The notes beneath the pieces are model-generated. The model did no database searches. It was not told the origin of the DNA and worked only from the letters and a program-made list of their open reading frames with translations. From Allacma fusca (Eukaryota; Arthropoda; Collembola; Symphypleona; Sminthuridae), in NCBI GenBank assembly GCA_947179485.1, contig OX359246.1, forward strand, positions 22,754,001 to 22,818,000: 64,000 bases of DNA, in the 5' to 3' direction. Of the stretch, positions 4,828 through 50,712 are shown piece by piece (within the stretch, counting starts at the first letter, position 1; each line of letters starts with the position of its first letter). Made by a program: the position numbers and the translations under genes.

Positions 4828-5516
4828 TAAGGTTCCTCACGGATAGGATAAATGACTTATCCTATCCGTATCCTATCCTATCCGGAAATTCTCGGATAAA
4901 TTAAAATCTAATCCTATCCTATCCGCTAATTTCGGATATAAATTTCTTGTTATCCGAATCCTTTCCGAAAATTTCGGATCGGATATAATTTGTATCCGTA
5001 TCCGACGGATAATTGTGACACCTTATCCGATCCTATCCGCAGATATCCGAAATCATCCGCGGATATACAGTTCTAATTCTGAAATGACTCTTGCACACTA
5101 AAATTTATAAAAAAAATAATTTTTAAAATACAGAAGGACTCATAAAAACACTCCAGTTTATATGGAGAGTTAATAAAGGATTACATAGAACACTTAGATA
5201 CCACTAACTTCACTAAAATATTCATTCTTCTCTTAGTCAAAATTGATTAGGCCGGTAATCAACAGATGGCAGATGGAACTATCCGCGGATAACCGCAGTT
5301 ATCCGACGGATTATCCGAAACTGAATATTATGTTATCGTATCCGTGCGGATAATTTTGCATATGTATCCTATCCTATCCGCATTAGTTGATCGGATAGAA
5401 TGTGCCTATCCGATCCGAGCGGATAAATGCGGATAGGATAAAATCATTAATTATCCTATCCGAAATTTATCCTATCCGCGGATATGCGGATATATCCTAT
5501 CCGTTGAGGAACCTTA
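4828..5516. mobile_element. hAT-like MITE, TATCCG-word family
   Basis: The termini are inverted: TAAGGTTCCTCA at the left and TGAGGAACCTTA at the right. A perfect 8-bp direct repeat ATTTCGAC flanks the element (4820-4827 and 5517-5524), as expected for hAT transposition. Most of the interior is the word TATCC/GGATA in both orientations (TATCCTATCCG, GCGGATA), separated by a short unique AT-rich core near 5080-5260. There is no ORF. It is non-autonomous. Confidence 0.88.
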
Positions 5517-5524
5517 ATTTCGAC

Positions 5525-6836
5525 TATACAAATGATTTAAACTGAATATTCTTCAAAATTCTCCCTACCATCAGCTCTTGGACCTCTCTTCTCTAAACAT
5601 TCACTGTTATACTGTACATAATCTATTTCATTGGACACTTCGCCCGTTTGAGTAATGCAAATCTTTGCTCATCAGTACTATTCTTAACTGTATTCGTTTT
5701 TACGAAGATGAATTATTTTGCAATTTGTTAGAATCGTCTTCTTTTTGAAAGATTTGTGCAGCGAAATAAGTAGACACCTGTGTATGCTTTTACCGATAAT
5801 GAAAAACAGGGAATTTTGATCAACTCCCGAACCCTTGAACCTAACTCAGTAATCAAAGACAAAAGTTTTTGCATAAATATATACCATGAATGGCTTTAGA
5901 ACAATAATAAAGTCGCAGCGGAACGATTTTTGGCCAGTATATAAGATAATAACGTCTGGCTATATAGCCATCGGCATCCCTATATCTTAATTACAACAAT
6001 TCACTAAACTTATCAAACTTCCGCAATCGAACCACTGACACAGACACTCTTGTACTAACATCCAATCGATACCCAGTTGAATAAACAATAACATGTAGTT
6101 ATATGGGGGCGGGTGTGAATTAAGGTCAAATTTATAAACAAAAGCCATGAAGTGAATGCATGTATCTCAGTTTATTCAAATTTGTGAGAACAGTGCAGAA
6201 CATGAGGGTTGATTCGTAAGTATTATATGCTTATGTCAACATTTAATCGAATCTTCACATTTTATCTCCTTCATATGAGTATAGTTTGCCAAAAACATGT
6301 TTGTTCTTCATTGTGTTCCTAGCAATGCTATAAGAATATAGTAATCCCAGTCGGAAAACTAAAAGCGCTCGGAAGTAATTTTTTAGGTGCCTGTCATTTT
6401 AGGGTATGCCATAGCCTACTGGTAAGCTAGGAAGGTAACGGCGCTGTCGTAACAACTCGAAGTGGCGAATAAAATCTAGCGACGCCCGGCTACATTGATT
6501 TGATTTAGAAACGACAGTGGTTAGTGTCATCATCTCATAATATGCCCAATGCTTGAAATATGATCAAACGCCTTTGAGTAAACTCAGCTAAATCGGCAAT
6601 ACATTTCTATATGGTATCAAAACGGTGCGTGCCGGGCATGCTGAATTTTGCTTTGTCAGTTTAATTCTGCGAACGTCGAGGCAACAACATGTTAGCTCCG
6701 GGAATAGTTAACACGAAATTTTTTACAGTTGTCTGTTTCTATACGAAAGAGAGCGGTGGTTCCAATAATATAGTTAACACCGCAAAGATTAAACTGTCAT
6801 TGGCCAAATTTTAGTGAACCCTCATTGATAAAGTTA
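5525..6836. other. Intergenic; no gene recognised
   Basis: AT-rich sequence without convincing coding frames. Around 6095-6150 it carries a copy of the duplicated flank also present near 1280. The last ~30 bases lead into the start codon of the small three-exon gene. Confidence 0.5.
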
Positions 6837-7456
6837 ATGACAAATCCAAATTCCGTTCCGAAAAGTACTTGGAAACTCCGCAGCGTTGAAGCCCAAGGAA
6901 AATACTGTAAGTTTTACTTTGATTTTTTATTACAACTAACATAATGTAATACGGTGACATCAATTCAATTCATTTTATCATTTTATTTTCACCACACTCT
7001 TTGGCATTTTTTCAGGGACTCTCAAATCTGCTCGTAAAGCTACGGAAAATGCTTTGGAAACGTCTACTGTAGAAAGCGACACTGACAATGAGGTTCTGAG
7101 TATAGGGAGGACCAGGCAAAGACGAAAACAACCTTGTCAGAAGGAATCTAAAAGAAGCGACTCCGAAGAGAGAGAAACTACTAATCATTGTAGCAACTTG
7201 GCTTTATTAACACCAGAACAAGAAATCTTGCAAGGTATTTTCGATATTAGATTTTGTAGAATTTATTTCCGGACACTAGACATTTTTGAGTACCACGTAA
7301 TTCCTATACAATGTCAAAATATAACGTGTATTGTGTTTTACAGATACATTTTTGAATCCTCCAAACCATCCTCATATTCCGACTCCGATCATCACATGGG
7401 ATTTGGATATAGGATCAGGGTCAGATTGCATTTTACTTGAACGTTTGCTAGGATAG
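6837..7456 (+). CDS. Small three-exon gene, unknown product
   Basis: Exons can be placed at 6837-6906, 7016-7234 and 7344-7456. The donors are GTAAGT and GTATTT, the acceptors TTTTTCAG and TTTTACAG, and both introns fall in phase 1 and join cleanly. The ~133-residue product begins MTNPNSVPKSTWKLRSVEA, followed by a lysine/arginine- and serine-rich acidic stretch (SDTDNEVLSIGRTRQRRKQ) and a short C-terminus. The N-terminal pattern (W..., YW..., K..A., then SD.D.E and a basic run) recalls nuclear DUF4806-type proteins, but the diagnostic C-terminal domain is absent, so this is only a suggestion. After the TAG at 7454 the same frame stays open to 7774 with plausible coding text. The stop may therefore be a disabling mutation in a longer gene. 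Confidence 0.5.
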
Positions 7457-12074: not shown

Positions 12075-13010
12075 GTAAGTTCATTGCAGAAATAATATAT
12101 TTATATTATATAAGGTCTATATTTTTTTGTGTAGCATTTCATAAGACTTTGTCTATAATAATTATAGAGCTAATGAATATTTATTATTTACAATTTATAT
12201 TTTTAAAGGCAATACGTAGAGGAAGTTTTTTTTACCTTACGTACCTTACGTTTACGTTTTATTTCCCCATCTACGGATAGTCCCCTCGTAGTAGTTCTTT
12301 AAAAACTTCGTTCATTGGATAAGGACCATTTTGTATGTCACAAACGTTAGACAAAATCAGGACTATGTAAGGTCTTTACGCTACATTATTTTGATTTCCA
12401 AACAAGACTAATAACTATTGAGTTTATCCAGTCACCAGCCACCACCAGTAATTTGAGGGAGTAGGGTTGGAGAAATTCCGATTGTCATTTTTAAAGCAAA
12501 CTGTGGAAGCACAGACGAATTTTAAAGCACTGGGTTTTCAGTAAAATTTCTGAGGATTCATTTTGTTTTCATCGGATAGCAGATCATTAGGTCAAATAAT
12601 GCAGACACGGAAATTGGAAACTAATTTGCTAGAAACTGGAGCAATTAAATTGTGGTCACAGTATATTTTAAGGGGAAAAGATCTATTACAGAATCAATGT
12701 TTACATGTTTTAGGGTCCCAGAAGTCACCTGGACATTACTTCCGGAAATGAGAGTAACTAAACAATACTTCAACTACACCATATTTGTGGGATTATGGTT
12801 TAAAATGATTCTATATTTTATTAGATGCAATTGGAAAGTACATAAAAAGTGTGGGGAAAAACGTGATTTATATATTAGTGGACACCTTCCTTGAAAAAGA
12901 AGAGCCATGGACGTGGTGTATTTTATCCCATTTTTACACACTGGGTAAACAGCTCATATTTAATTTGTTATTTTGAGTATTTGCCATATCAGATGTATTT
13001 TTCCTTGCAG
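12075..13010. other. Intron or intergenic sequence
   Basis: AT-rich, with no convincing exon. The phase of the preceding exon (ending at 12074, phase 0) does not match the next likely exon at 13011 (needs phase 1). Either a small exon hides here or the two belong to different, decayed genes. Confidence 0.4.
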
Positions 13011-13523
13011 ACGTACTCCTTCAAAATATCCAGAAGGAAAACTACAGCAGCTTGTTTCAAGACTCAAAACAAGTGAATAGTCTTATGGCAGGGCTGGAGA
13101 AAGGAGGCTTTACGAGGTTTCCTGCGAATAAACTGGTATGACTGATTTTCCATGAAACTGGTTTTGTTTGTCCTTGTGTATTGAATATTTATACGCACAA
13201 AAGAGGTTGAAAATGATAAAACATTTTACCAAATACTTATTAATTTGGCTTACCCGTGGAGTGCTGTACACAGTACCATTTTAGTGGGATAATGAAAATA
13301 TATACGAATATTAAAATTGTACGAATATATATAATTACGAATATTTTTGCCATACATTGTACATAATTTCTCTACTTTAGGTGAGTATCTATGAATTCAA
13401 CATGTGCTGCATTAAGGAACTTTTGTCGAAAGACAACCCGGAAACTTCCGGGGATGAGCCATTTTCTGAAAATTCTGATGCCAGGAGCTCAAGGTTCCTT
13501 CATAATGCGGCCTTTCAAACTGG
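13011..13523 (+). CDS. Two probable coding exons, unknown product
   Basis: Exon A is 13011-13135 (acceptor TTCCTTGCAG, donor GTATGA) and reads LLQNIQKENYSSLFQDSKQV in a clean frame. Exon B starts at 13381 after a pyrimidine-rich acceptor, joins in phase 0, reads IYEFNMCCIKELLSKDNPET and then an acidic serine-rich stretch, and reaches a possible donor GTAACA at about 13524. The leucine-rich helical character and position suggest they are 3' exons of the NB-ARC gene upstream. The phase does not connect directly and no stop codon or final exon was identified. Part of a gene, function unknown. Confidence 0.45.
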
Positions 13524-14182
13524 GTAACACACATTTACAAACAAATTTCCAGCCATGCTCTGCCGAGGTTGCTGAATTTCAAAATAATCTGTCCTAGTTT
13601 ATGTTATAGAAACCCTACGGAGAAGCACATTTTAGTAGAGTCACTCCTGGCATTTAATGGAAGCCAAGATCCTCGGACGCCCAAATGTGGTGGAACCCAA
13701 CAGGGAGCCAATACACACGAATAATGCTTTTGTACCGGACACAAACTTCCTTTATTTTTAGTGACATAGTTTTGAAATCCATAAGCAGCGCCGAGAAGAA
13801 GAATTGAGGGCTTTTCGTTGAATAATAATATATCTAGAACAAAATCTAAAATTATGCTGTATTGTTTGAGAATGAGATTATTACCAAATAATGTAGCTCT
13901 TGAAGTGTATTTCAACACCATCAACCTTAAAATTATACATTTATAATTTACACGAATTAATTCCAGTACTATTTATTAGATAAGATTCCTAATAAATAAT
14001 TTACTTTAACCAAATGACCTGCAGTCCTTGGTTTCGTGAAAATGTTTTCACCTGATTGAACAAAATGGAGTCCTCATTTGAAAAAATGAATATAAGTAGA
14101 ATGTATACATTCTATACTGTTAGGTTAGTATATATACTGGCAGTGTTCACAATAGCATCGAAAGTACGCTTGTAGTAATAGG
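13524..14182. other. Intergenic; no gene recognised
   Basis: The ORF on the minus strand at 13604-13924 has no family features. The final eight bases (14175-14182, GTAATAGG) are the left target duplication of the next element. Confidence 0.5.
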
Positions 14183-15333
14183 CAGTGCATCGCATGGGTA
14201 CGGTTAGTACCTGAGTATTTGGGTACAGGTACAGGTCCAGGTCCGAAATGGGTACTCTATTTAAGTTCCCAAACTGAATGGGTACTTTATGGGTACTAGC
14301 TATATGTACCCAAATTTTGGGTACAAAACCAGGTGTTGGGTACAGGTACAAACTTGGCCTTTTTAGGGTTGTACCTGACAGGAACAGGTACAAGCTTCCA
14401 ATATACCTGGACCTGACAAATTAATACCTGAAAATGTGGGTACTTTTACAAACAGAAATCCATCTTACGAGGCATCTAGTGTAGTATGAGGCTATCTCTC
14501 CGACCTACAGGTTTATTTGGATATTCAGTGTTTTCAGGAGTGCATCGTAATTTTTGAAAAAGCATACGTTTATGCAACAGAGATGGTTGACTTATTGTTA
14601 GCACAACGTGCCAGCAATAAGTACTTGTAATTACAAACTCCACTTTTTATTCAGTAAAAATGGTGTTAAATGACACTGTGGTTATGGAGGATGACCTACA
14701 AGTGGAAAATTTAATTGGTGATGGCAATACCTCAGATGGTATAGAGGTCATAGTTACATTAAGATGTCTAGTATTGCAAAAATTATGACGAGGCAGAATT
14801 TTTCCTAGTTTGTAATTGGTGTGAACAGGCCTGGCGTTCAAGTTCAAGTAAAACTTGACAAGTTCGGGTCAAGTTCAAGTTCAAGTCAAGTTCGGGTTTC
14901 AAGTTAATTTGAACTTGACACTGAAATCTCAAGTTCGGGTCAACATGAAATTTGAACTTGATTTTAAGGCTCGAATCAAGTTCATGGTCAGGTCTTCATT
15001 ATTGACTTGACATCAATGCCATGATCAAGTTCGGATCACATAACCCCAAAACCATGAACATGAACTTGACTTTTCATGGTCAAGTTCTTATACTCATATA
15101 ATACGCTGTAGATAATCGTTCTTATGCAGATGTCCTTGCTGAAGCTGTAAACGCTAATTTAAATCACAGCGTTTTCGCGTGCTAGACCGGTATTTCTAAG
15201 TTTTCAACGAGCAACGTGCTCCGGGCTCAAATATTACAAGCTAAATCCTGTTGTATTTTCTTCTTCACAACATATTTTCAATTTTAACTTGATTTAAATT
15301 TTTGAATAATCATATTTTAAAAACAACTGGAAA

Positions 15334-15510
15334 ATGAGCACATCTGAAAAGTCTCAACAGTGCGAAGAAGATGCTAATCCTGGAAGTCTAACTGCATCAA
15401 GTAGCCGGAAAAAATGACCTAAGGTCCACAAGCATTTCACATTTTGCACATTGCACATTTTACATTTTTTGATTCTACAAAAAAAATACAGCTGCAAACA
15501 CTGCTCGTAA
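15334..15510 (+). pseudogene. hAT transposase N-terminal relic (BED-like)
   Basis: The frame starts MSTSEKSQQCEEDANPGS and runs through SSRKK, a TGA stop at 15415-15417, then PKVHKHFTF and, about 20 codons later, KYSCKHC. The spacing of the aromatic/basic stretch and the CxxC pair fits the first half of a BED zinc finger as found at the N-terminus of hAT transposases. The histidine half is missing. The stop codon and the loss of the catalytic core show it is dead. Confidence 0.6.
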
Positions 15511-15881
15511 GCACTGATCGTATATATATATATATAGGTACTCAATAGGTACTCAATAGGTATATATATATATACCTGTTGAGAATTGAATTGGCATAGT
15601 TTTGCTACTGTGTAGCAGTAGTAATTGTTACTGCTATTAGTTTTAATTGAAGAAAGTGAAATTATTTTATTTAGCTATTTTTGTCATTTCTAAGTTATTT
15701 GACAATAGCAAAAGTATTGAATATTACTTTCATAGTAATAATTGTAAGGCAAGTATTATGAATGTAGCATAGCAAGCGCATGTAAGTATTAGTACATTGA
15801 TCTGGTTAAGATGCAATGATGACTAGCGCTTGTAACAGAATGCATTAAGACACGGAACTGTTAACATCTCAATAAATACTC

Positions 15882-16202
15882 TTGTTAATCTTTAGAATAG
15901 TAATTCTTGTATTCGGGCAAGTCAATTACTTAATTACACGTGCAATCTGCAACTTTCATAGTAAATCAAACTACATCGGGATTTTACTATTTATCAGTCA
16001 CACACACCTCAACAATACCTGTTTCAGTTGTCCTGGCACAGACCTACTAACTCCTAAAAGAATGTTAGAAGACATCATTTGTGTTTGTCTGTGCTTGAAG
16101 GGATGGTTGAAATTCAAATCTCAAACCAATTTTGACGAAATCCATGTCTCATTCAAAAAATTCGACGGGAAATCTAGTTATTTTTATATTCTCTTATTAT
16201 AA
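15882..16202 (+). pseudogene. hAT transposase C-terminal relic
   Basis: Residues from about 16024 read CFSCPGTDLLTPKRMLED and then a CLCLKGWLK stretch. This is the signature of the hAT C-terminal dimerisation region (usually FS.AG.ILT.KR..L....VE.LVCLK.WL). The DDE catalytic core that should precede it is absent, so the piece is a deletion remnant. It supports the hAT assignment of the surrounding element independently of the target duplication. Confidence 0.72.
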
Positions 16203-16328
16203 GTTTTATCAATCATTACTTCTAAATTTTGATATTCAATTTTAAAAAATAAATGGAAATTAAATCTCAGGTAATGTGTTAGCCTTTATAATTATAAGTA
16301 TACATACAACACTATAACTAGAAATTCA

Positions 16329-16503
16329 AGTCCATGGTCAAGTTCATGGTCAAGTTCATGGTCAAGTTCATGGTCAAGTTCATGGTCAAGTTCATGGTCA
16401 AGTTCATGGTCAAGTTCATGGTCAAGTTCATGGTCAAGTTCATGGTCAAGTTCATGGTCAAGTTCATGGTCAAGTTCATGGTCAAGTTCATGGTCAAGTT
16501 CGC
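16329..16503. repeat. 12-bp tandem repeat ATGGTCAAGTTC, ~14 copies
   Basis: About fourteen nearly perfect head-to-tail copies of ATGGTCAAGTTC lie in the right subterminal zone of the GAACTTGA-family hAT element. The unit contains the element's characteristic CAAGTTC word, so the array appears to be a local expansion of that subterminal motif. It opens a meaningless reading frame of repeated MVKF. Confidence 0.95.
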
Positions 16504-16962
16504 CGAAATGAACTTGATTATGTGAATTTGATTACTGCGGTTCGTACCTACTTTTAAAAAATCAAGTTCAAGTTCGGATCTTAATTATGGTGATATAATC
16601 AAGTTCGGGTCAAGTTCAAGTGCGAATCATGAGTTGAACCGAACTTGAGGCCAGGCCTGGGTGTGATCATCGAATGTTGAATAGTTTTCAGTAATTTTTT
16701 AAAGTACCTGATTGGTACAGGTCTGTAGGAAAATTTTTCAGGCACAGGTCCATATATTGGGTATATTTGGGGTACGGGTGAAATTCAGGAACAGGTACGC
16801 ACTACTTGCAAAATAATCAGGTCCAGGTACCAACATTTATTTAATGGGTACTTTTATTCAGGTACGGGTTTTGGGTACGATTTTTGCCGGTACCCACTAT
16901 TTGGGTCCAGGTTCAGGTTCAGGTACAGCATTTTTGTACCCATGCGATGCACTGGTAATAGG

Positions 16963-17225: not shown

Positions 17226-17579
17226 CAAAGATGGGCAAATGAAGTGCCTAAGCCTATAGCCTGCCTAGTTTCTTTCAAAAAATATCGCCATCCTATATAG
17301 GCTAATAGGATGTTCCAACGAAAAGAAGAGCCTTAATACCACAGGTCAAGTACTCTAACTGCCTGCCTATTAGCCTATATCTGTACTAAAGTGCATTGCT
17401 TGCATGCCTATATTTGCTGTACAGCTTCTGACAGCGCTTTCCCAGCCTATATAGGCGATATAATTGTGAGCTTTAGATAGTGCAAGCCTTATACAATGAT
17501 CACATGCAAAATGCAATTGGAATATCAATGTAGGGGTTTGATTAATGCTGTAGTAAAATACGTAGTATCCAGTGAGAAT

Positions 17580-18268
17580 TAGAGCATCTTGGGTGGTTAA
17601 AAGTTACGGGTAAGCCCGTAGAAAGCCCGACCCGCCCGAGCTTCGGGCGGGTACGGGTAAAATTTATTGCGCTTGACGGGTTACGGGCGGGTACGTTCTT
17701 TTCAATGCGGTTAAAAAAGACTGTGAAAGCCCGTAAAAGCGCGTGAAAACATTCATGAGTGGTGCATGCAGGATCAGGGGTTATACATGGAACGATTTTC
17801 AAACGTTTGTAATTTTACCTGTAAAACAAAGCCTTAATATACAATGTCAACGAATTAAATCACAGGAAATAACCGTAAAATCGCAAGTTTGGAAAAAATT
17901 TAAACAAATACTGTACCATGGTTGACTATAGGTTTCCATACATTATGTGAAGTACAATGAGTGCAGGAATATTTTAGGAGGCAATCGCGCCAAGGAGGGA
18001 CATCAACTCTGGCCAAATATAATTGTAAGAATTTTGTAGTGGAAGCAACCCCAGCTCTTGCCAATTTCATTCAAAAAAGGTCGAAAATGAAAAATTGAAT
18101 AAGCAAATTGTTCTGGGTCTATAGCTATGGATTTACAAGCTGAACTAGTATTAGCGGGCGGGCTACGGGCTTTTTTAAATTTTACGGGCCGGGCCGGGCT
18201 TTATCGTTGAACTTTAATTTCGGGCCGGGCGGGCACGGGCCTAAAATATCCCACGGGGTGATGCTCTA
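17580..18268. mobile_element. Nested hAT-like MITE, ACGGGC-word family
   Basis: The termini TAGAGCATC and GATGCTCTA form a perfect 9-bp inverted repeat. Flanking octamers GTGAGAAT and GTTAAAAT agree at 6 of 8 positions. The interior near both ends is packed with CGGGCGGG / GCCCG, giving local GC far above the surroundings. A unique AT-rich middle separates the two arms. Non-autonomous. Confidence 0.75.
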
Positions 18269-18325
18269 GTTAAAATAATAAAATATGGGACAATTATGCA
18301 TGTACTATGGTACACATGTGCATAT

Positions 18326-18870
18326 CACTGATCGGCGCACTCACGAGTTTTGAGAGCAAAACTCGCACTCAACTCGCACTCAGAACTCAAAATTTGAGTG
18401 CCGAGTGCGAGACCCGCGGCATTCTGAGCAGAACTCAGTTTGTGAGGCCGAGTGCCATAAAAATAGATTGCAGTCATTGAGCGAGAGTGTGAGGGCAGTA
18501 TTTGGAACTCATATATTCCATAACGGAATGCATGTTGCCCCCATCTACACTTACAAATTTAGTACATTTTGCCTGCATTTAGCGTTTTGATGACTTCGTC
18601 TCCGCTAAAAATGTGAGCTATCGTCAGTACAAGGGACGGCTTCAGCGTTTTGCTTTGGCGGATTCCTTGAAATGGCGCTAATTTTAATTTGTTACTGAGA
18701 GTTCCTGAGTGCGAGTTTGAGTGCAAGATTTTATTATGGTCGCTCATGAGTGCGAGTGCGAGCTCTTGTTTGATTCAGAATTTGAGTTCCTGAGTGAGTT
18801 CTGAGTTCCGTTTAGAGACTCCAAGCACTCTTGAGTGCGAGATCGAGTTCAAAAATTTTGCCGATCAGTG
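18326..18870. mobile_element. Nested hAT-like MITE, GAGTGCGAG-word family
   Basis: The termini CACTGATCGGC and GCCGATCAGTG are a perfect 11-bp inverted repeat. A perfect 8-bp target duplication GTGCATAT flanks it (18318-18325 and 18871-18878). Both arms repeat GAGTGCGAGT / ACTCGCACTC and GAACTC. There is no coding capacity. Confidence 0.92.
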
Positions 18871-19224
18871 GTGCATATACTTTGGTAATTACTGGTTTCA
18901 AGTAATTCCCGCCTCATTGTCAGCCCGTCTCTGCAAACGTTTTCCCAACGTTTGTAATCTTGTCCTAACAAATTGGTGCTTTGAGAATGTTCCGCTCACC
19001 ACCATTGCCTAGCCTTTACTTGAACGAACTTGTAGCCTGCCTGAATAGCCCAGTCCCTTTTTCGGAAATATCTGAATATCCTAGAATTTCCCTAAGCCTA
19101 TATTGTAGTGGTGATTGCCCAGCCTAGAACCTCGCCTAGATTTATATCCCAACTTGCAGCATCCTAGAGCCTTCGCCTATTACAGGGCCTAGAATCTAGG
19201 CAGGCGCCCATGTTTGCTGCACGT

Positions 19225-19582: not shown

Positions 19583-21517
19583 TAGTGCTGTAATTTGTTC
19601 GTTTTGTTTGGTTTTGTTCTCTTCGGAAATGAACAAAAGTGGAACAATTTGAGTTTTGTTTTGTTCACCGAGTTTTGTTTTGTTTTGTTTTTTGAACAAT
19701 CCGAATTGTTCAAAAAACAATCCATATTGTTTTGTTCTACCGATGTAGAAGATGTTAGAAATTTGTGAAATTGATTGTTGTATATTAGTAATAGAGCATA
19801 TTGAAGTTGATTGGTGTAAATTTGGTCCGCGCACAAAGGACGTTAAAACCAAAAAAACGGGCTTTAACTAATTTTAGGTGGATATGCTTTACAACTCTTA
19901 TTTAATACACTCATTAAACTTTTTGTTGATAGTTTCTAGGAGTGCAAGGCGTAATGTAATTCCATGCATCCACAAGACCTGAAATGACCGCATTTATAGA
20001 CATAATATATTGTGGTGGGGTTTACCTAAAGCTACCGATACGCATCGTTTTCGGTTCGTCCGATGCCTTGATTGAATTAATAACCTGTATTGTTTTTTTG
20101 GACTGCTTAGACCTCTTTTATTTCTGTGTCTTCCTGTCAACTCACAGGCAGACTAGTTTCAACATTTTTGGATCAAATCAAGTTTATCATTTAGCATCCA
20201 AGTCATCCTTCTGCATTTTATTAAAAACAACAAAACAAAATCAAATTTCAGCAGTGGAGGTGACATTTGTTCAACTAAGGACTGGTGTCCAACAGAAATT
20301 TCTCTCGTTTACAATATCCGATGTAACCAAACATTTAATATCAGTACAGGTTATGGTCATAGAAGGTAACAATTAATTACTCCATTGACCTCAAGTAGGC
20401 ATTCTAAGTTACACGTTGTTCAATAACTTTAGATTGGCCTTCAACATCTGTAAATATAGTGCAAGGATTTTGTTGACCTTACTTAAGCCCAACGGTTCAC
20501 ACTATCACTTCAAAAGCTTCTAATGGTCATTATGATGTTATTTGAGATTCATTTCAAAGTGTATGTAAGGTTTTGGGTCTACTAATAACCCACAAAGGTC
20601 AAATTGAGGTCATGGGTCTACTAATAACCCAAAAAGATCAAATTGAGGTCATGGGTCTACTAATAACCCACAAAGGTCAAATTGAGGTCATGGGTCTACT
20701 AATAACCCAAAAAGATCAAATTGAGGTCATGGGTCTACTAATAACCCACAAAGGTCAAATTGAGGTCATGGGTCTACTAATAACCCACAAAGATCAAATT
20801 GAGGTCATGGGTCTACTAATAACCCACAAAGGTCAAATTAAGGTCATGGGTCTACTAATAACCCACAAAGGTCAAATTAAGGTCATGGGAATTCTTGTGA
20901 CCCATCGAAAAATGAGATAATGAAACTCCTTTTGACCCATCGAAAAATGAGATAATGAAACTCCTTGTAGCCCACTGAGGTCAAATTGAGGTCATTAAAA
21001 TTTCTTGCAGCCCACTGAGGTCAAATTAAGGCCATGGAATTTCTTGTGACCCACTGAGGTCAATTGGAGGTCATGGAACTTGTAACTCATTGAGGTGAAT
21101 TTGAGGCCATTAAACTTTTTATGACTCACTCAGGTCAATTTGAGGTCATGTTGCTATTTGTGACTTATTCAGGTCAATTTGAGGTCATGTTGCTATTTGT
21201 GACTTACTCAGGTCAATTTGAGGTCATGTTGCTATTTGTGACTTACTCAGGTCAATTTGAGGTCATGTTGCTATTTGTGACTCACTCAGGTCAATTTGAG
21301 GTCATATTACTTTTGGGCACTTTTTCAAACTCAAGTTTGAAAAGGTTATTGCTTGCTGTCGTGGTGGTTTGTTTGTTATAGTTTTGTTTTATCTTATCGC
21401 GGTTTTGTTTTGTTCTAGTTTTGTTTTTTCGAAAACGGATTTTGTTTGTTTTGTTTTGTTCAAAAAACAAGAACTGAACAAAAGAACAAACAAAACGCGA
21501 ACAATATTACAGCACTA
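19583..21517. mobile_element. hAT-like element, TTTTGTTC-word family, with minisatellite
   Basis: The termini TAGTGCTGTAAT and ATTACAGCACTA are inverted, and the perfect 8-bp target duplication CCTTAAAC flanks the element (19575-19582 and 21518-21525). The first and last ~150 bases are built of TTTTGTTC/GAACAAAA. The ORF at 19984-20376 has no recognisable domain and is probably not a gene. The right half is a large 39-bp minisatellite (separate entry). No transposase was found. Confidence 0.9.
20570..21310. repeat. 39-bp minisatellite rich in AGGTCA
   Basis: Eight close copies of a 39-bp unit (containing GGTCTACTAATAACCCA and AAATTGAGGTCATGG) run from 20570 to ~20890. More diverged units of similar length follow to ~21060, and then five copies of another 39-bp variant (CTCAGGTCAATTTGAGGTCA) to ~21310. 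All share the core AGGTCA-N5-AGGTCA, with some first half-sites mutated to AGATCA. The multiple-of-three length keeps two frames open, which explains the long spurious ORFs here. Confidence 0.93.
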
Positions 21518-21525
21518 CCTTAAAC

Positions 21526-26008: not shown

Positions 26009-27222
26009 CAATGCTGGGCGCATACCCTGCATGTACTATGCCTACATGTAGGCAAAATTGTAGGTTATGTTCACATTGTCAAATATTTTGTAGGCAATTG
26101 TATGTAGACTGTTTCGAGGAAAATTCTGCAATTTATGTATCCTGGGAATAATCAGTATGTAGACACAGACAGGGGTCGGACGGGTTTTTGAGGGAAGACG
26201 AGAAGATTCCTCCCAGGGAAGAAATATTTCTGCCAGGGAAAATCTCAAAAGGAAGGTATTCTTTTTTCTAACAGGGATTTTTAAATTCCTTGACCTTTTT
26301 TTGGCCAGGGATTTTTTTACGGAAATAATTGGCTACGCAAACAGGGATTTTTAGATTGGTTTACCTTATTTGTCAGGGATTTTACGTCTTGTAGCCAGGG
26401 AAATTATTTTTACCAACAGGTATTCGTTGAGGACCTTCCAGTAGGGATATAAAATTCAGCAGGGAAATTTACAAATGATCTTCCAGGGAGATTTACGAAA
26501 ATCCGGCCCCTGGACACAGAAACAAATGTAGGTACTTAAGTGTATATGCACGTAGGTATATGTATGCTCGAACCTTTGATATTCTAAAGCGCTGCATAAA
26601 AGCCCCATATAGATTTTCTTTCACATATGTTTTTTTTTACTTTTGTTTACTTGCCGCAGTGCAAAAGATTTCAATTTTTCAAAGTCTTGATCCCTTCCGA
26701 AAAAATGTTTTATCATGAAAAGTTGATTCAGCATGAGAATCGGTATGTACATTTGTCTAAAATGTCCGGCATTAAGCTGATGATTTTATTACTGTTCACA
26801 GAATCATCTTCTAAAATTCACACAATTTCTTCACTACTCATTATTAAAATTAATGAATTATAAATCACGCAAGAGAAAATTATTTTTAATGAACAGCATT
26901 TCTAAAAAATTACTGTAAATACGATCTGAAACTTTTCGAAAGCAAATTTTAATGTGACTTGAACATTGCATTTTCATAGCCAACTTTGTATTGTTTATTT
27001 TTAAAGTAAGATCATTGTAAATAACTTGTAGGCTTCAATCTATGCATGTATAATTTCATTTTAATTTGCAGGTAAGGTTCTATTCCGACAAAAGATGTAT
27101 GTCGGTTGTAGGTAGGATCAAATCTCGGGAATGATCTATTTAGGCTATTATGTATAGACTCTACATAAGAATCTAAAAATATGTAGGATTTAGGGTATGC
27201 GAATATATTTTGCCCAGCTTTG
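26009..27222. mobile_element. hAT-like element, GTAGGC-word family (outer)
   Basis: The termini CAATGCTGGGC and GCCCAGCTTTG are inverted with one mismatch, and the next block GCATACCC / GGGTATGC is inverted too. Flanking octamers GTTTGCAG and CTTCGCAG agree at 6 of 8 positions. The subterminal zones repeat TGTAGGC / CTACATGTAGG. A smaller hAT-like element is inserted at 26170. No transposase is visible. Confidence 0.72.
26170..26512. mobile_element. Nested hAT-like MITE, CAGGGATTT-word family
   Basis: The termini CAGGGGTCGGACGGGTTTTTG (left) and CGAAAATCCGGCCCCTG (right) are inverted with few differences. A perfect 8-bp target duplication GACACAGA flanks it (26162-26169 and 26513-26520). Almost the entire 343 bp is made of CAGGGATTTTT / CAGGGAAAT words, with hardly any unique core. 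No coding capacity. Confidence 0.92.
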
Positions 27223-36248: not shown

Positions 36249-36887
36249 TTATTGAGCGAATGGCATTAAAGTCGGAGCAGCATTACTTGCATCCTCGCTG
36301 GGCTTTTCCAAATGCTTGATAATCTTCGCAGGGTTTCCGGCCACTACAACATAATCCGGAACGTCTTTCGTCACAACACTCCCAGCTCCAACCACAACCC
36401 CATTTCCAATCTTGACCCCGGGACAAATCACTGCCATCCCACCGATCCAGACATCATCTCCGATGGTTATGGCCTTTGCCACCTCAAACACCCGTCTCTC
36501 GATACAATCCAAAGGATGAGTGGCAGCGTAGATATGAACCCCTGGAGCAGCCAGGAAGTTCTTCCCGATGGTCACCGGAGCCGGGTCCAGAATACAACAA
36601 TCGAAATTCATGTACGCATTCTCCCCAAAAGTAATATTTACTCCGTAGTCACATCGGAAATTGGGCTCGATGTAGATCTTGTCTGTGGATTCAGGGCTAA
36701 ACATCTCTTTCAATATGCGGGCTCTATTAGGCAGATCTTTATCACTGCTGGTGTTAAATTCTCGTACAAGTTTCCGAGATTTCATCCTGGCTTCCAATAA
36801 TGCGGGTTCAAAAAAGTCGTACGGGTATCCTTGAAGCATTCGCTCCTTGTTGGACAAATGCTCATATTCTTTGGGGTATGTTGCCAT
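36249..36887 (-). CDS. Maltose/galactoside O-acetyltransferase-type protein 3
   Basis: An intact 212-codon paralogue of copy 2, starting [20 protein letters not shown], with the same domain order, catalytic histidine in AATHPLD and acetyl-CoA motif [12 protein letters not shown]. Differences from copy 2 cluster in the N-terminal helical part (residues ~3-62), around 133-138 and in the C-terminal tail. It lies just left of its own duplicated upstream region and next to a dead nucleotidyltransferase piece, so the enzyme survived where its neighbour did not. The start codon again follows an acceptor-like CTTTAG. Confidence 0.9.
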   Translation of the reverse strand: MATYPKEYEHLSNKERMLQGYPYDFFEPALLEARMKSRKLVREFNTSSDKDLPNRARILKEMFSPESTDKIYIEPNFRCDYGVNITFGENAYMNFDCCILDPAPVTIGKNFLAAPGVHIYAATHPLDCIERRVFEVAKAITIGDDVWIGGMAVICPGVKIGNGVVVGAGSVVTKDVPDYVVVAGNPAKIIKHLEKPSEDASNAAPTLMPFAQ

Positions 36888-42443: not shown

Positions 42444-43134
42444 CAGAGCTGTCCAAAATACATGCTCTCCAAATACAAACTACAAAATACAAAATACATT
42501 CTGCCGGCGTCGAAAACACAAACTACAAAATACAAAATACATTCTTCCGGCGTCGAAAATACAAACTACAAAATACTAAATACATTCTTCATGCGTCGAA
42601 AATACAAACTACAAAATACAAAATACATACTCAAAACGTAGAAAATACAAACTACAAAATACTAAATACATTCTTCAGCCGACGAAAATACAAACTACAA
42701 AATACAAAATACATACTTGAAACGTAGAACATCCAAAATATGGAATTTAGTTTTATGTGATGTTAAAACGATTGCATTTCGTTTTACTTGATTGATGTGA
42801 TTGGTTTTTGGCATAAACTGAATTTTCAAACCCAAAGAAAGTGCGCCAACAAAAAACACAAGTAGCTTATAAAGCGAACAAAATACAAACTACAAAATAC
42901 ATTGCTTACTTTACGTAAGTAAGACAAAATACAAACTACAAAATACAAAATACATTGCATCGCAAGACAAAATACAAACTACAAAATACAAAATACGTTG
43001 CATCGTAAGACAAAATACAACCTACAAAATACATACCTAGCCACGAAAATACAAAATACAAAATACAAAAGTGTATTTGAAATACGTATTTGAAATACAT
43101 GTATTTAAAATACCATGTATTTTGGACAGCTCTG
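42444..43134. mobile_element. hAT-like MITE, TACAAAATAC-word family
   Basis: The termini CAGAGCTGTCCAAAATACAT and ATGTATTTTGGACAGCTCTG are perfect inverted repeats. A perfect 8-bp target duplication GAAACAGT flanks it (42436-42443 and 43135-43142). The left arm is a ~50-bp tandem array of ACAAACTACAAAATAC with intervening CGTCGAAAA; the right arm carries similar units around AAGACAAAATACAA. The terminal CAGAGCTG is shared with the element at 45609, so these two belong to related families. No coding capacity. Confidence 0.93.
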
Positions 43135-43142
43135 GAAACAGT

Positions 43143-44145: not shown

Positions 44146-44159
44146 ACCTGAATCGGTCA

Positions 44160-45055
44160 TTACAGTATTGGTAAAAACAGGATTCCTGGTCCGGCTGAGT
44201 TTTATCACAACTGGATTCTTGCCTCCAGATTTGCCCATATTGGTAAGTTGTTTTCTGGCCTCAGTTTGGTCAATATTGGTCAATCATTTCTGAAAAAACC
44301 ATTCCTCGACACTCATGTCCGAAATATTTTTTGGAACGCTACGTACCGTCCATTAATGTCAGAATTTTATCCTTTTACTAATCATGTTCACGTTTCCTGC
44401 AGAAACTGAATTTCCCCAACCTTGCCCACAATTCTCAACTCCGACTTGCTGACCAAAGAAAAGCTGGGGAAATCAAATAATTAAATCTGTGATCAAGAAA
44501 CCAGTTGTGATCAAAATGGGCAAATCTGAGGCCAATAAACCAGCTTTGACCAGTATGGACTTTGACTTTGACTAGTAGAGACCAATATTATAAATGTTAG
44601 GCCAACAAACCAATTGAGACAAATATTGGTCAATCTAAGACCAAGAATCCAGTAGTGATCACTATATATAGTATGCGCATACATGTCCATGAAACCAACT
44701 GGGATGGAATTGGGCCAGTCTGACGCCAGGAAACCTGTTGTGACCAATATTGGCCAATCTGATGCGAAGATTCCATTGGTGACCAAAAGTGATGAAAGAA
44801 TGCCAAAATTTGTCATTTAGCTTTATTACATTACTTCACCGAATTTAAAAAATGAACATTATTATGAAATTTAAAACTAGCAACTTTAAGCTGGACCACG
44901 AGTTAGAATTTGAAACGTCGGCGCGATTTCCCGCGCAAACTAGTGCGAGATGGGCCGAACTTTTATCTGCGCTGGGATATTGGACCCGCTATCAAAGCTC
45001 ACGAAATTTCATTCCATTTCCGAGTGGGCATGGAGCGAGGGTTACTTGTAAGTAA
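44160..45055 (+). repeat. CCAATATTGGTC-rich block, unit 1
   Basis: Repeats of about 40 bp combining GACCAATATTGG, AATCTGAGGCCAAGAAACCA and GTTGTGACCA, ending GGGTTACTTGTAAGTA. This right end matches the right arm of the foldback element at 1-1258, so this block is a truncated or rearranged relative. A complete inverted left arm was not found. Confidence 0.75.
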
Positions 45056-45608: not shown

Positions 45609-46508
45609 TCAGAGCTGCGTTCATGTTCGGTTCAAATAGCGATTCGAACATGAACATGACTCGAACATGACAATTTTAAATAAACCACGATCTGAACATG
45701 ACCTGAGTACTTCAAGTTCACGTCGTAACTTGACCATGAAAGTATGATAAGTTCAAGTTGATTTCACCGAACTTGAACATGGTGCTAACATGAAGATCAA
45801 GTTAGCTCCGTTACTTGACCCGAACATGCACTTGAACTTGAACATGACCACGAATTTAAAGTTATACGGGTAAAAAATAAATTAAGTAAGGACTCAACAT
45901 TGCAACCTTTTATGTTATGTCAGCTTAAAATGCAATAGACAAAATTAATAACCACAATATTTTAATCAACATTCCCCCAGGGGTTTCTCTGAAACTTTGA
46001 CCACCGGACGCTTTTTCAGTCAGTATAAATGTGGACCACTTTGAATTAACTTAGTTTTATGAGCTATTGATTTTATTTAACTGTATTTCAGCTTTATGAT
46101 ATGACTTTACTTTACCATGCGGTTGACGGGAATAAGCACGTTGAGTTTTTTATACATGCGTGTATGTATTTTAGATGCTCCTGTTTGCAAACAGTTGAAA
46201 TTTTAAATCAGGTACAAGCTGTAAATAAAGGATATCTTGCAATCACGTTTTATTCATCGTTTTTAACATCAACTTGAAATGACATGCTCATGTTCAAGTT
46301 TTTCCAGATGGCTGAACCGACCATGAACATGACAATGTTGTCAAGTTGGATGATGAAGACTTGAACTTGAACATGATTCGGACTTGAATGTCATGTGAAA
46401 ATTTGACGTAAACTCGAACATGATGCTTCATGGTCAAGTTAAAATAATCGTCAAACCGAACTTGACATGAACATGACAAGTTTTAACATGAACTTGACCG
46501 CAGCTCTG
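45609..46508. mobile_element. hAT-like element, AACATGAACTTG-word family
   Basis: The termini are CAGAGCTGCGTTCA and the inverted TGACCGCAGCTCTG. The octamer GAGTAAAC flanks it on both sides (45601-45608 and 46509-46516), with one extra T on the left. Both arms repeat GAACATGA / ACTTGAACTTGAACATG. Unit 2 of the duplication has no such insertion at the corresponding site. The core (~45870-46260) is unique and non-coding. Confidence 0.88.
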
Positions 46509-46889
46509 GAGTAAACACAATAGGTTGTCGCTGTAAGTGACACTTTCACACGGGTATTTTGAGCAGCTCTGATGTATACATAACTACAAAGAAATAGCGG
46601 ATTAAATTATCAAATATAACACTCATCATTTTCGATTGATGTATATTCCTGTAAACAATTTGCTAATAACAGGCATTTAAGATGGCTAAACTTCAAATTA
46701 TGGGCTACACATGAGAAAACAAAATACGTCGTCACTATAAGGAACTCTTTCACAGAGATGTTTTGTCTCCAGCAGAAAACTCAATTTGAGTGGCTCTAAA
46801 CTACCACACTATTTGACGACTTAGGGAAGAACAGAGAAATAAAATCGTGTGTGAGCAGTCTTTTGAACTGCACACTAAAATTTCTAGAT
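46509..46889 (+). promoter_or_regulatory. Upstream region of chemoreceptor-like gene 1
   Basis: This ~300-bp region is shared with the other units (for example AGGCATTTAAGATGG, GACTCTTTCACA / AACTCTTTCACA and CTCAATTTGAGT before the start codon). Conservation across three diverged units suggests promoter/5' UTR content, though recent duplication alone could explain it. Part of it (ACTACAAAGAAAT.GCGG...AAGATGG) is itself present a second time just left of the hAT insertion. Confidence 0.55.
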
Positions 46890-48467
46890 ATGGGAGAAAT
46901 GAAATTATCACACGACCGCTTGACAATTAGAACACTGAAAAACCAGCCCGGTCTTAAAATGATTTCTAAAAGGGACTTATGTGTAAATTTATATGCAACT
47001 TACTGTATTTCTTGGCTGGGTTTAATCCCACTCGAAGCTGACCGGAAAACTTCTCACTTCCGTTTTCAGTCGTCCAGATTTAAGCTCACGATAAGTTTTT
47101 TGTACATATTTACCTGGATAGGTCATTTTTGCATTTGCGTTTATCGACTAGTTAATTTTTTCCTCGTTGAATTACCAATACATGGTAACATTGACCATCT
47201 GCCTTGTCCAATTGCATGTATTTTGGCGTCTTCATGCAGCCTGTTCGCTCACAAGGCAATTTTTTGGTCAAATACGACGCCAATGGCAATATTTCTGTTC
47301 AATGAAGTTTATCATTGTTTCCCAGGTACGTACCAAGTATCAATGCACAATTCGTATAAAGCTTGAGACTGAACGACTTGCAATTTCATGTTTATTGACT
47401 TTTCATTTCTGGCTTTGTAGACAGGAATGATAGATCCTGGGGCAGTTACAGTCGTCAGGAAGTGCTGCTTGTGTTAATATTTGCATTCTGCATGACCCTT
47501 GGTTGGTTACATTTGAGCGTATTCCTTGTTGAGCCTGGGGGATTTAATTTCGTCTACAACAACCTCCCAGTGTTTATCGATAAAAGTAGCTGGATCACGT
47601 TTGGGGTTTGTGCATTGATCGAGTTACGTTTGGCGATAATTTGGCTCAGCTCGGCGGCGTATTCAATGTTTTGGTTACTGTCATTTTACGTAGTGGCGCA
47701 TGCGCACTTGAACTGCGGCATTACCCTGGTTGCGTAAGCCGCTAATTCATTTATGCAATCATTTTAATGTTTTTTACTATTTTATGAGGCTTTTTGGAGG
47801 CCGTTATTTTGGCACTATCATCCTCATTCGTTTTTTTGCTAAGCTTTTGAAATATAGAGCTTTTATTTAAAATTTTTGCCCAGGTATCTGAACTTGAAGT
47901 TTTTTTATGCCTTGATGTTCACAAAGTTGGATCATACAAGCTTGTAATTAAAATATTGTGTTTTTTGATTACAGAAATCGTAGAAACGGCCAGAAACACA
48001 TAGATCGCGTAATGAACGCCTGTCAAAGCTTAAGGGAACTTCAACTCTGCACGAAGTACGTGAATGAAATATCTAGTAGCCCGTTATTTATAGCAAAGCA
48101 AGCATACCTGTACCTTTCAGTGGTATTCGGTTTCTATGGTGTGAGGCTTTTGGGGCAAAGTAAATATACTCTAGGGACAATCTATTCCGTGCTGTTCTTC
48201 TTATCAGTGAGCATATTCCCCATTACTAACGAGCTCGCCTTTTCTATTCCAATTTTAATTGACTCCTTCAAACGTAGTATCATATTCGAGGCACATTTTT
48301 TGCCCGCAGTCGATCGCTACCATACTTTGAAAGTAGTGGCCTCCATTCAAAGAGTGGGGGTAAAAGTGGGGCAGTTTACTGAATTGGGCCCGCTTTCTGC
48401 TCTAGAATTCATCGAGTTTGTGGTTTGCACAGTAGGGGATTTATTAATTGGTTTTAGTATTAAATGA
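46890..48467 (+). CDS. Multi-pass chemoreceptor-like membrane protein 1
   Basis: Exons 46890-47325, 47421-47733 and 47975-48467 join in phases 1 and 2 with GTACGT and GTAAGC donors, giving 413 residues. The ATG is chosen because the downstream paralogues start at the same place (MGGM, MAEK). A conserved cytosolic N-terminus (RTLKNQPGLKMISKRDL) precedes about seven hydrophobic segments: near 66-93, 105-140, 157-180, two at 200-245, two around FPITNELAFSIPILI, and a weak C-terminal one (LEFIEFVVCTVGDLLIGF). Length and topology fit arthropod gustatory-receptor-like proteins, but the TYhhhhhQF signature of insect GRs is absent, so the family name is uncertain. Expected at the plasma membrane of sensory or other cells; ligand unknown. 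All splice sites and the frame are intact. Confidence 0.8.
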
Positions 48468-48689
48468 GACTTTCATTACTATGACTCGTTTAATGCAACT
48501 ACATCTTGTATTTCACAACGTGTCGAAAGAGTTGGGAAATGTATGCAATTCATCTTGCGGGCCTTTGTATCTTCCATCTTCAGGGATTCTGAAATATGAG
48601 CATGGTTAGAAAATAAAAGGGTTAAAGTTCCATGCCTGGTATATAGGAATTTAACGGGGATTTTATCTGGTATATTATAGGCATGGAGT

Positions 48690-49560
48690 TTCCAATGTGA
48701 CGTTTTCTGACCTCAGTTTTGTCAATATTGGTCAATAATTTTCGAAACAACCACTTCTCTAAACTAATGTACGAAGTATTTTTAAGAACGCTACGCACCG
48801 ACCATTAATGTCAGAATTTTCTCCTTTTACTAATCATGTTCACTTTTCCTGCCAAAACGAAATTTCCCCAACCTTGCCCACAGTTTATAACTCAGAATTG
48901 CTGACCAAAGAAAAGCTGGGGAAATCAAATAATTAAATCTGTGATGAAGAAACCAGTTGTGACCAAAATGGCCAAATCTGAGGCCAAGAAACCAGCTGTG
49001 ACCAGTATGGACAAATCTGAGGTCAAAAACTAGTTGTGACCAATATTGACAAATGTTAGGCCAACAAACCAATTGTGACAAATATTGGTCAATCTAAGAC
49101 CAAGAATCCAGTGGTGATCATTATGCGCATACATGCCCATGAAACCAAATGTGATGAAATAGGGCCAATCTGAGGCCAGGAAACCGGTTGTGACCAATAT
49201 TCGCCAATCTGATGTGAAGATTCCAGTGGTGACCAAAAGTGGTTATTATATATGAGCCTTGGAACCACTTATGATGAAAGCATGCCAAAAATATGTCACT
49301 TAGCAATATTACATTACTTCACCGACTTTAAAAAATGAAGATTTTTATGGAATTTAAAACTAGCAACTTTAAACTGAACACTGGACCATGGATCACGAGT
49401 TAGAATTTAAAACGTCGTCGCGATTTCCCGCGCAAACCAGGGCGAGATGGGCCGAACGTTTGTCTGCGCTGGGATATTGGACCAGATACCTAAGCTCACG
49501 AAATTTCATTCCATTTCCGAGTGGGCATGGAACGAGGGTTACTTGTAAGTAATAGTATTA
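48690..49560 (+). repeat. CCAATATTGGTC-rich block, unit 2
   Basis: A close copy of 44250-45055, with the same order of CCAAGAAACCAG and GACCAATATTG units and the same end GGGTTACTTGTAAGTAATA. Small length differences in the array distinguish the copies. The minus-strand ORFs here are repeat artefacts. Confidence 0.8.
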
Positions 49561-49773
49561 ATATCATTATAAGTATACATACCTACACAACAGCATTGGC
49601 AAAAACACTAACGTTTGTCAATGTTCGACAGGTGTGACTGAAATGGTAAAATGGTTAAATGAATAGATCCCCATTAAAATAATCACAGTAGTAACACCGT
49701 AACTAAGTTTTCCATTCCAATTAAAGTATATTTCCGAAGAAAATTTGGGGTTAGGAAATTTTAACCCTCAACC

Positions 49774-50712
49774 CAAAGGTGTCCGCCTATCCTACATATA
49801 GGCCTATTTGTAGGCTATTTATAGGGTGCAAGGATTTTACTGAATAGGCTTATAGGCAAAATAGGATGCAAGAATATACATTTGAACCCTAGACTACAAA
49901 ATAAGTAGGCTCAGCCGTCGTAAAATAACACGCATATATGTATAAGCTACTGAAGCACATAATTTTCAATTTATGGCATGTGGAACGGGTAACATAAAAA
50001 TTAAAGAATAATCTGCCAGCTTTGCAGATTGTATGTTTTATGGTGTGTACCAAAAGTAAAAATGTTGTGCCATTTCGCCTTGATATTCGCTGAAACCTCA
50101 TCGAAATTAAGTTCGAAATAATTATTCGATAAAGTAGAAAAGATGTGAATATTTACGTTTGACCAAAATTCGAATTTCAAACAGGATTTCCTACGAGATA
50201 TGTTGTCAGTCAGCTAATACCTTTCCGTTGTCCCAATTTAGTTGTTTTGCTCACATTGGAAAATGTTTATTGTAATATTTAAATTGTGAAATCTCAAGTG
50301 CAGCATCCCTTTTTAACAGTTATAAAATTTCGGCACGTTTTCCAGCGCAAACCAAGCCGAGATCGGCAAACTGTTTTGATCTTAGGAACTTCGGCCAAGG
50401 TTGCCAAACTCAAACTATTTTATTTCAATCCCGTTGAATTGAAGGAGGGGTTTTAATTACAAAACCAACGAATGACCTTAAGTAACCTGTCGCTCACGAA
50501 AAGTATATAACATGTAGGAAGAGTGTAAAATACATTGAGCTTATTTGTCAATAAAATGTTGGCTAATACGTAGGCCTGGTGTTCCCCATTTAGAAAGGAT
50601 ATAGGATAGGCTGATCTACTCGGCAGTTTAAATGTTGGCATATATGTAGGTTCGGCCCCAATATTAAATATTGGAAGGATATAGGGTAGGCTGAGTCATT
50701 TGGACACCTTTG
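49774..50712. mobile_element. hAT-like element, TATAGGCCTA-word family
   Basis: The termini CAAAGGTGTCC and GGACACCTTTG form a perfect 11-bp inverted repeat. The flanking octamers are CCTCAACC and CCGCAACC (7 of 8). In unit 1 the equivalent site is empty (near 45275-45285), which directly proves insertion. The subterminal word GCCTA/TAGGC is shared with the element at 17226, so they are related families. The middle part contains a diverged copy of the GCGCAAACCAAG segment seen at 1130 and 49430. Non-autonomous. Confidence 0.88.

Follow-up and report, generated by a model that had tools for sequence, protein, structure and literature searches.

Why would a series of transposons sharing one stretch of DNA each carry, repeated many times within its ends, a short word that is largely its own? 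The question is raised by a 64,000-nucleotide window of the Allacma fusca genome (G000:C8:22754001-22818000; the genome searched comprises 392.7 Mb in 91 contigs), in which positions 4828-50712 hold 12 hAT-type elements, F1 to F12, arranged in part as three nests (F3 in F2, F4 and F5 in F11, and F8 in F7). A likely answer, drawn from sequence comparison and from analogy with characterized transposases, is that these hAT transposons are moved by several transposases encoded elsewhere in the genome, and that the word of each would be the site of its own transposase's BED zinc finger, changing as the finger changes. The elements themselves are of a known kind, and their interest lies in the natural dataset of words and fingers that they form. 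They are listed here by window position, with their words, terminal inverted repeats (TIRs) and target-site duplications (TSDs).

F1, 4828..5516: word TATCCG/CGGATA; TIR TAAGGTTCCTCA; TSD ATTTCGAC, exact (4820-4827 and 5517-5524).
F2, 14183..16954: word GGTACAGG/TGGGTAC; TIR CAGTGCATCGCATG; TSD GTAATAGG, exact; contains F3.
F3, 14826..16659, in F2: word TCAAGTTC (GAACTTGA); TIR CAGGCCTGGC, 10/10; TSD GGTGTGAA/GGTGTGAT, 7/8.
F11, 17226..19216: word GCCTATA/TAGGC; TIR CAAA(G/C)ATGGGC; TSD CTGCACGT, exact; contains F4 and F5.
F4, 17580..18268, in F11: word ACGGGC; TIR TAGAGCATC, 9/9; TSD 6/8.
F5, 18326..18870, in F11: word GAGTGC; TIR CACTGATCGGC; TSD GTGCATAT, exact.
F6, 19583..21517: word GAACAA/TTGTTC; TIR TAGTGCTGTAAT; TSD CCTTAAAC, exact.
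F7, 26009..27222: word GTAGGC/CCTACA; TIR CAA(T/A)GCTGGGC; TSD 6/8; contains F8.
F8, 26170..26512, in F7: word CAGGGA, on one strand; TIR CAGGGG(T/C)CGGA; TSD GACACAGA, exact.
F9, 42444..43134: word TACAAAATAC, on one strand; TIR CAGAGCTGTCCAAAATACATG, 21/21; TSD GAAACAGT, exact.
F10, 45610..46508: words AACATGA and AACTTGA; TIR CAGAGCTGCG; TSD GAGTAAAC, exact, with an extra T at 45609.
F12, 49774..50712: word TAGGC/TATAGG; TIR CAAAGGTGTCC, 11/11; TSD CCTCAACC/CCGCAACC, 7/8.

Membership of the hAT superfamily, mostly in non-autonomous form, is supported because the elements combine 8-bp TSDs and characteristic tips with autonomous relatives that encode a hAT dimerisation domain and a BED finger. 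The TSD is exact in eight of the twelve (F1, F2, F5, F6, F8, F9, F10 and F11), reaches 7/8 in F3 and F12 and 6/8 in F4 and F7, so that the original prediction, made from the window alone, of at least eleven hAT-like elements with mostly exact 8-bp duplications stands apart from these imperfect cases; in F7, the combined TIR and TSD score is 15, against a mean of 12.6 and a maximum of 14 in 30 shuffles. A blind scan of the window (TIR of at least 11/14 plus an exact TSD) returned six 8-bp pairs, compared with a mean of 0.6 in 10 shuffles, and recovered 5/12 elements; the seven that this threshold did not return (F3, F4, F7, F8, F10, F11 and F12) were placed by sequence inspection and a local scan, except that the tips of F10 were set by eye, the automated local scan having misplaced them due to the extra T. 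One pair from the blind scan, 12138-15762, was set aside as probably a chance match. An additional T between the left TSD and a CAG tip, seen at window position 45609 in F10, also occurs in the coding partner of F3 described below (L087). Left tips have the form (C/T)A..G in 11/12 elements, F3 (CAGGC) being the exception, and the right tip of F11 is CAAAC; a short TIR of this form is a trait of the hAT superfamily.

Relatives that encode a transposase were sought with the PF05699 profile, which gave 860 first-look candidates in the genome; 150 of the 860 were scored, and all 150 exceed the cut-off. Among 20 loci taken whole, tips and an exact 8-bp TSD enclose the transposase in 11 (TIR of at least 11/12, with the pair spanning the PF05699 match), as opposed to 0/20 and 0/20 in two shuffles. 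Alternative TSD lengths of 5, 6, 7, 9, 10 and 11 bp yield 1, 8, 0, 0, 3 and 0 of the same 20 loci; one-base-shift shadows of 8-bp pairs explain 6/8 of those at length 6 and 3/3 at length 10, leaving two loci at length 6 and one at length 5 without such an explanation. Counting also L014 (tip 10/12, exact TSD), and taking for L028 the second-ranked tip pair because the top pair was chance-like, there are 12 autonomous elements with a hAT dimerisation domain inside 8-bp-TSD tips: L010-L014, L016-L018, L020, L021, L027 and L028. L020 has the same tips and word as F6 and is thus its autonomous relative; L012-L014 carry the F1 word and nearly the F1 tip; and a partner of F3 (G000:C8:42488357-42492536, reverse strand) places the F3 tip and word around a hAT-like catalytic region, recognised by eye, and a BED helix, within a TSD of 7/8 accompanied by the extra T. 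Might the elements instead belong to another superfamily with 8-bp duplications, such as P or Merlin? An 8-bp TSD by itself is indeed not unique to hAT, but the dimerisation domains within the tips of the 12 autonomous elements and the hAT-type catalytic region of the F3 partner make this extremely improbable.

Many of the families extend far beyond the window. Tip patterns were counted genome-wide for F1, F2, F3 and F9, each with the reversed pattern as control: F2 is found at 589+588 places (control 0+0), F9 at 222+213 (0+0), the left tip of F3 at 56+67 (1+0) and the right tip of F1 at 35+32 (5+4). These counts fit miniature inverted-repeat transposable elements (MITEs), that is, non-autonomous hAT elements that are short and non-coding and occur in many copies with shared tips. 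Fourteen whole copies of F9, all on C1, were obtained from 100 of the 435 places, selected for a match of both tips to the pattern; they are 201 to 939 bp long, with a single base off in one tip, and 13 have an exact 8-bp TSD (7/8 in the remaining copy), all TSDs being different, so that duplication length is consistent across copies, as the original prediction needed it to be. Similarly, a second copy of F4 (L028:7228-8025) has a TSD, GCGCCAAC, that matches at 8/8, unlike that of the imperfect copy in the window. The same word block recurs in 5/6 genome ends of F1, with L047 as the exception; no tip pairing was found within the 750-bp pieces around these six ends, whose second tips probably lie farther out. 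The exact tips of F1, F2, F5 and F9 are absent from the collected loci, taken as all but L029-L048. On C1, tips of F9 also recur at almost even intervals, of 5.6-6.7 kb and of about 18 kb (G000:C1:41530290-41554039 and 43660447-43697286), which suggests tandem duplications that carry F9.

How firmly are the words tied to the tips? The commonest tip 6-mer lies above all 50 shuffles in 10/11 elements, F4 being the exception (a count of 7, with up to 8 in its shuffles); F12, tested apart, also stays within its shuffles (5, against up to 8). Among the 12 autonomous elements, the top word exceeds all shuffles in 10. An element-blind scan of the window found 12 word-rich regions, ten of which overlap F1, F2, F3, F6, F8, F9 and F10 (7/12 elements), while F4, F5, F7, F11 and F12 fall below its threshold; one of the ten consists mainly of a 39-bp minisatellite that makes up part of the interior of F6 and is distinct from the F6 word, and the other two regions are tandem arrays. 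The proposal that the ends are packed with a short word is upheld for most elements. Its extension to both strands holds for most families, with F1 and F11 balanced, but not for F8 (11+/0-) or F9 (29+/1-), the one-strand orientation of the latter persisting across its copies. Likewise, the word differs between most families, as had been proposed for all, but GAAC[TA]TGA is common to F3 and F10, and F7, F11 and F12 have in common a TAGGC core with a varying first base.

The extent of the word zone was determined by learning words at one tip and counting them at the opposite tip, using both tips of 20 elements that range in length from 0.3 to 7 kb, 40 tips in total (leaving aside the copies L013, L014 and L028 as well as F12; F8, at 343 bp, is too short for an edge). 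In successive 50-bp bins from the tip, matches per 100 positions are 12.8, 11.5, 11.3, 7.0, 5.7, 1.9 and 0.8, followed by 0.1-1.1; density is thus high to 150 bp, drops by 250 bp and is nearly nil past 350 bp. Read by eye from the table of individual elements, L027 and the TAGTGCTGTAAT group have a zone that ends at about 150 bp (one L020 tip reaching about 250 bp); it ends near 200 bp in F5, at about 230-280 bp in F1, F2, F9, F10, L012 and L018, and at 300-350 bp in F3, with F4, F7, F8 and F11 too sparse or too short for such a reading. Because word density drops at a family-typical distance from the tip, the zone resembles a landing strip with a fixed length and not an expansion consuming the element. 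The words do begin at the tips, in line with the coincidence of word blocks and ends on which the original prediction depended; its suggestion that the zone had grown to form most of the element is not supported, as the words stop about 150-260 bp from most tips (about 350 bp at one F3 tip) and, across the 11 elements for which coverage was determined, the listed words account for 6-30% of the bases.

Such repetition could also be a by-product of replication slippage or gene conversion, in which case the words would be minisatellites without a binding role and family words would differ by chance drift. True tandem arrays are present (14.7 copies of 12 bp in F3 and 43-bp units in F9), and they account in part for peaks at 5-6 and 10-12 bp in the spacing of neighbouring same-strand words; moreover, F9 copies range from 201 to 939 bp, and the words of F8 and F9 are one-stranded. 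As a general explanation this is nevertheless improbable, since the same word stands at both tips, mostly on both strands and at irregular spacing, in zones that have an edge in elements of 0.5-7 kb, and since it tracks the finger helix in sister families with the same tip and matches the sites of Hermes and of ZBED1/DREF, as described below. Inverted pairs such as TATCCGCGGATA, found in tips of F1, L012, L013, L014, L018 and L019, raise another alternative, in which single strands of the tips would fold back into hairpins and act in that form, not as docking sites for protein; this we consider very improbable, because the words of F8 and F9 run almost in a single direction at both ends, so that the blocks are not mutually complementary.

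If the words are docking sites, do they vary with the protein that would read them? Matches to zf-BED pass the curated cut-off in two elements, L016 and L027, and score under it in L020, L011 and L018; there is no match in the tested pieces of L010, L012 and L021, those of L012 and L021 being without a whole finger. When 15 fingers were combined into a profile, it retrieved ZBED1 at 2.1e-8, C2H2 fingers from 1.6e-4 and ZBED2 at 0.017; a phmmer search with the L027 finger alone did not find the Hermes transposase. The position called 70 in these fingers, after Hermes R70, is assigned through spacing. The outer tip is identical in L020, L011 and L016, save for one base at one L016 tip, while the counts of GTACAA/GAACAA/CAACAA in their tips are 12/0/0 in L011, 0/11/0 in L020 and 1/0/20 in L016 (0/13/0 in F6 of the window). 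Their transposases, 56-67% identical outside the BED finger, have the recognition helices YTTNLKKH (L011), YSTNLKNH (L020) and FTTNLKDH (L016), and the equivalent of Hermes R70 is K where the word is GTACAA, N where it is GAACAA and D where it is CAACAA. Residue 70 is hence a candidate determinant of the word, though other candidates exist, as positions 64 and 65 differ too among the three. Two further loci with an Asn finger, L053 and L055, show no tip in the pieces collected.

A second clade has Arg at position 70; it was chosen by protein similarity to L016, and for several of its loci a single tip was captured, whereas L027 was taken whole and its likeness to Hermes was recognised before the other Arg-70 loci were collected. 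The words found in this clade are TCAGTC (L027 and L073), CAGTC (L063 and L071), CTAGTC (L066) and GAGTG (L067/L068), all of which contain AGT. For F5 of the window, whose word is GAGTGC, an Arg-70 finger resembling that of L067 is predicted as the partner. Counted by family, AGT occurs in 5/5 Arg-70 and in 1/8 other families (Fisher p 0.005, uncorrected for ancestry, from hand-entered counts and for a contrast chosen after part of the data had been seen). The count leaves out L061, a one-strand AGT tandem array of doubtful membership; L077/L078; the five Arg-70 loci in which no word stood out (L069, L079, L081, L083 and L085); L010, whose finger Pfam does not recognise; L009, where no element was located; L015, whose word is unclear; L017, which has no finger; L057, L059 and L075, for which a finger was not read; and further copies of families already counted (L014, L019, L022, L023, L049, L051, L053, L055 and L071). 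The ATGCC array of L077/L078 was rejected as an Arg-70 word and judged to belong to the tip of an adjacent element that starts CAGGGTTGCAC; L078 (C10:21950850-21951950) shows, on the reverse strand from about base 870, the start of what appears to be another hAT tip, CAGGGTTGCAC, whose word is GGCAT. In a third clade, the helices STGNMGYH and STSNMGYH, with Tyr at 70, go with the word TATCCG, and the resemblance of this clade to ZBED1/DREF was recognised after the fact.

A clustering of this kind, with AGT in the L027 clade and TATCCG in the L012 clade, would equally follow if the words are binding sites but each transposase clade merely inherited an ancestral word, without ongoing change of word and finger together; the families are few, which favours such a view. 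It appears somewhat unlikely in light of the TAGTGCTGTAAT clade, where transposases of 56-67% identity outside BED combine three words with three residues at position 70, and of F7/F11/F12 and L027/L066/L067, which keep a core while its flanks change.

The proposal that each word is read by the finger of its own transposase, and changes with it, has to be set against several observations. The one-strand words of F8 and F9, together with the tandem arrays of F3 and F9, mean that slippage contributes to the repetition. In L021 and in the copy L028, the top word does not exceed shuffles (10 against 11 and 10 against 13, respectively). The search for autonomous partners matched F1, F3 and F6 and found none for the other nine window families. 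The profile of 15 fingers does not match Hermes. The 12 Arg-70 loci taken as pieces comprise 5 with AGT words, 1 with the doubtful AGT array, 1 with ATGCC and 5 without a clear word. Lys-70 accompanies both GTACAA (L011) and TCAAGTTC (the F3 partner), and Asn-70 both GAACAA (L020) and ATCCGA (L018); because each of these residues pairs with two words, residue 70 alone does not set the word. Related families, which are few here, can share helix and word by descent. Finally, according to PMC10368747, the BEDs of Hermes contact just the left end, with no binding at the right, so that dense words at both tips are not simply proof of BED docking at both. Weighed with these points, repeated co-evolution of word and finger, as originally predicted, is supported, although not proven, by the same-tip sister families and by the published sites of Hermes and of ZBED1/DREF; the small number of families and the two exceptions at residue 70 count against it.

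The mechanism that we propose would link the tips, TSDs, copies and zone lengths observed here with the transposase genes found in matching tips and with the way in which finger helix and word differ in parallel. Mobilisation of the mostly non-autonomous elements would be the work of several hAT transposases whose genes lie elsewhere in the genome. Each tip bears a 5-8 bp word in many copies, over a length typical of the family (about 150 bp in the TAGTGCTGTAAT group and about 230-260 bp in several others). The word would be the binding site for the BED zinc finger of the family's own transposase, and the many fingers of a transposase multimer would find and hold the transposon end through these words, after which the short terminal repeat would be cut and joined to the target, spanning 8 bp. 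A change in the recognition helix would be accompanied by a change of word, while the outer tip can stay constant. More tentatively, and with less than even confidence, the tips may hold their own binding motif some 15-60 times, the word may co-evolve with the BED helix and the genome may constitute a natural BED recognition code; in this code, position 70, read together with the residues around it, would match AGT to Arg and TATC(C)G to Tyr and, inside a single clade, TTGTTC, TTGTAC and TTGTTG to Asn, Lys and Asp, respectively. Our confidence in such a code was slightly reduced because Asn-70, like Lys-70, pairs with two unrelated words.

It is through BED fingers that hAT transposases, and also host factors such as ZBED1/DREF, read DNA. 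Were the code real, BED specificity would be predictable from sequence, with hundreds of transposase loci in a single genome as data, and a switch of word under a fixed outer tip would split a hAT lineage into families without cross-mobilisation. If tips record the site of each finger, genomes already hold very many finger/site pairs, and the length of the zone would indicate how large the docking complex is in different hAT clades. Titles and abstract openings among the matches listed from the open-licence literature mention no BED recognition code.

The window holds further features apart from the hAT elements. Open reading frames at 30024-30575, 31138-31776 and 36249-36887 (reverse strand) are alike by eye; the third, the one searched, matches maltose-acetyltransferase (Mac plus hexapeptide) and is possibly of bacterial origin and duplicated. 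Two others, at 28448-29497 and 40832-41851, are similar by eye, and the first matches OAS1_C (2'-5'-oligoadenylate synthetase); those at 46851-48467 and 55324-55827 are alike and resemble insect chemoreceptors by eye, with no Pfam match for 46851-47366 or 55324-55827, nor for a 588-residue open frame at 62017-63783. An inverted repeat of 118 bp, 84% complementary, encloses about 1.1 kb at 50-1164 and represents another kind of element. Minisatellite-like arrays at 20574-21327, 44200-44780, 48702-49236 and 248-976, one of them inside F6, are related by eye and contain TGACC/TGGTCA words; where Tandem Repeats Finder assigns them a period, it is close to 39 bp. A 33-bp tandem array (ATGCTCTCAAATTATTGTTGAGCATTCTTGAGC; 9.7 copies) at 59014-59333 has open frames on both strands.

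How do these elements compare with known systems? Ac/Ds, Tol2, Tag1, Tgf2 and Herves have been studied as single families, and we know of no set of sister words within one genome for any of them, although the systems were not each searched for one; the zinc finger of Tgf2 and the Herves transposase reportedly bind their transposon ends. As a counterpart to the word zones described here, DNA beyond the TIR is required at the ends of these transposons, the lengths cited in PMC10368747 being 200/150 bp for Tol2, about 100 bp for Tag1 and at least 200 bp for Ac. Host transcription factors, as opposed to transposons, provide another parallel: the BED helix of human ZBED1, NTSNLSYH, resembles STSNMGYH and STGNMGYH of the TATCCG group, with Tyr in both, and the ZBED1 site TGTCG(C/T)GA(C/T)A and the fly DREF site TATCGATA, as given in PMC6179265, resemble TATCCG without being identical to it.

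Direct prior art for the equation of word and binding site is found in PMC8097297, according to which hAT proteins with BED and Hermes domains, including the CGGBPs, show diverse specificities on binding arrays, and the motifs measured for four hAT-encoded proteins match subterminal regions of their own Repbase models. Proteins were measured in that study, which, in the section examined, does not relate helix residues to words among same-tip sisters. The closest counterpart is Hermes, whose BED finger, according to PMC10368747, reads AAG(T/C) via helix residues that include N67 and R70; a 4-bp repeat occurs 17 and 14 times in its two ends, about 200 bp of end is required in cells, and the octamer offers many BED fingers to the repeats inside the ends. 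Because the Hermes finger reads end repeats and four hAT proteins match their own subterminal regions, each word here is likely the site of its own transposase. Hermes and the window elements are alike in their 8-bp target site, short TIR and BED finger with a repeated short word; Hermes N67 and H71 recur in the fingers examined here except in L009, which has Gly at 67, and R70 recurs in the L027 clade, whose Arg-70 fingers with AGT words parallel Hermes R70 with AAG(T/C). Compared with the repeats of Hermes, the words described here are longer, often denser and different among sister families that share the same tip.

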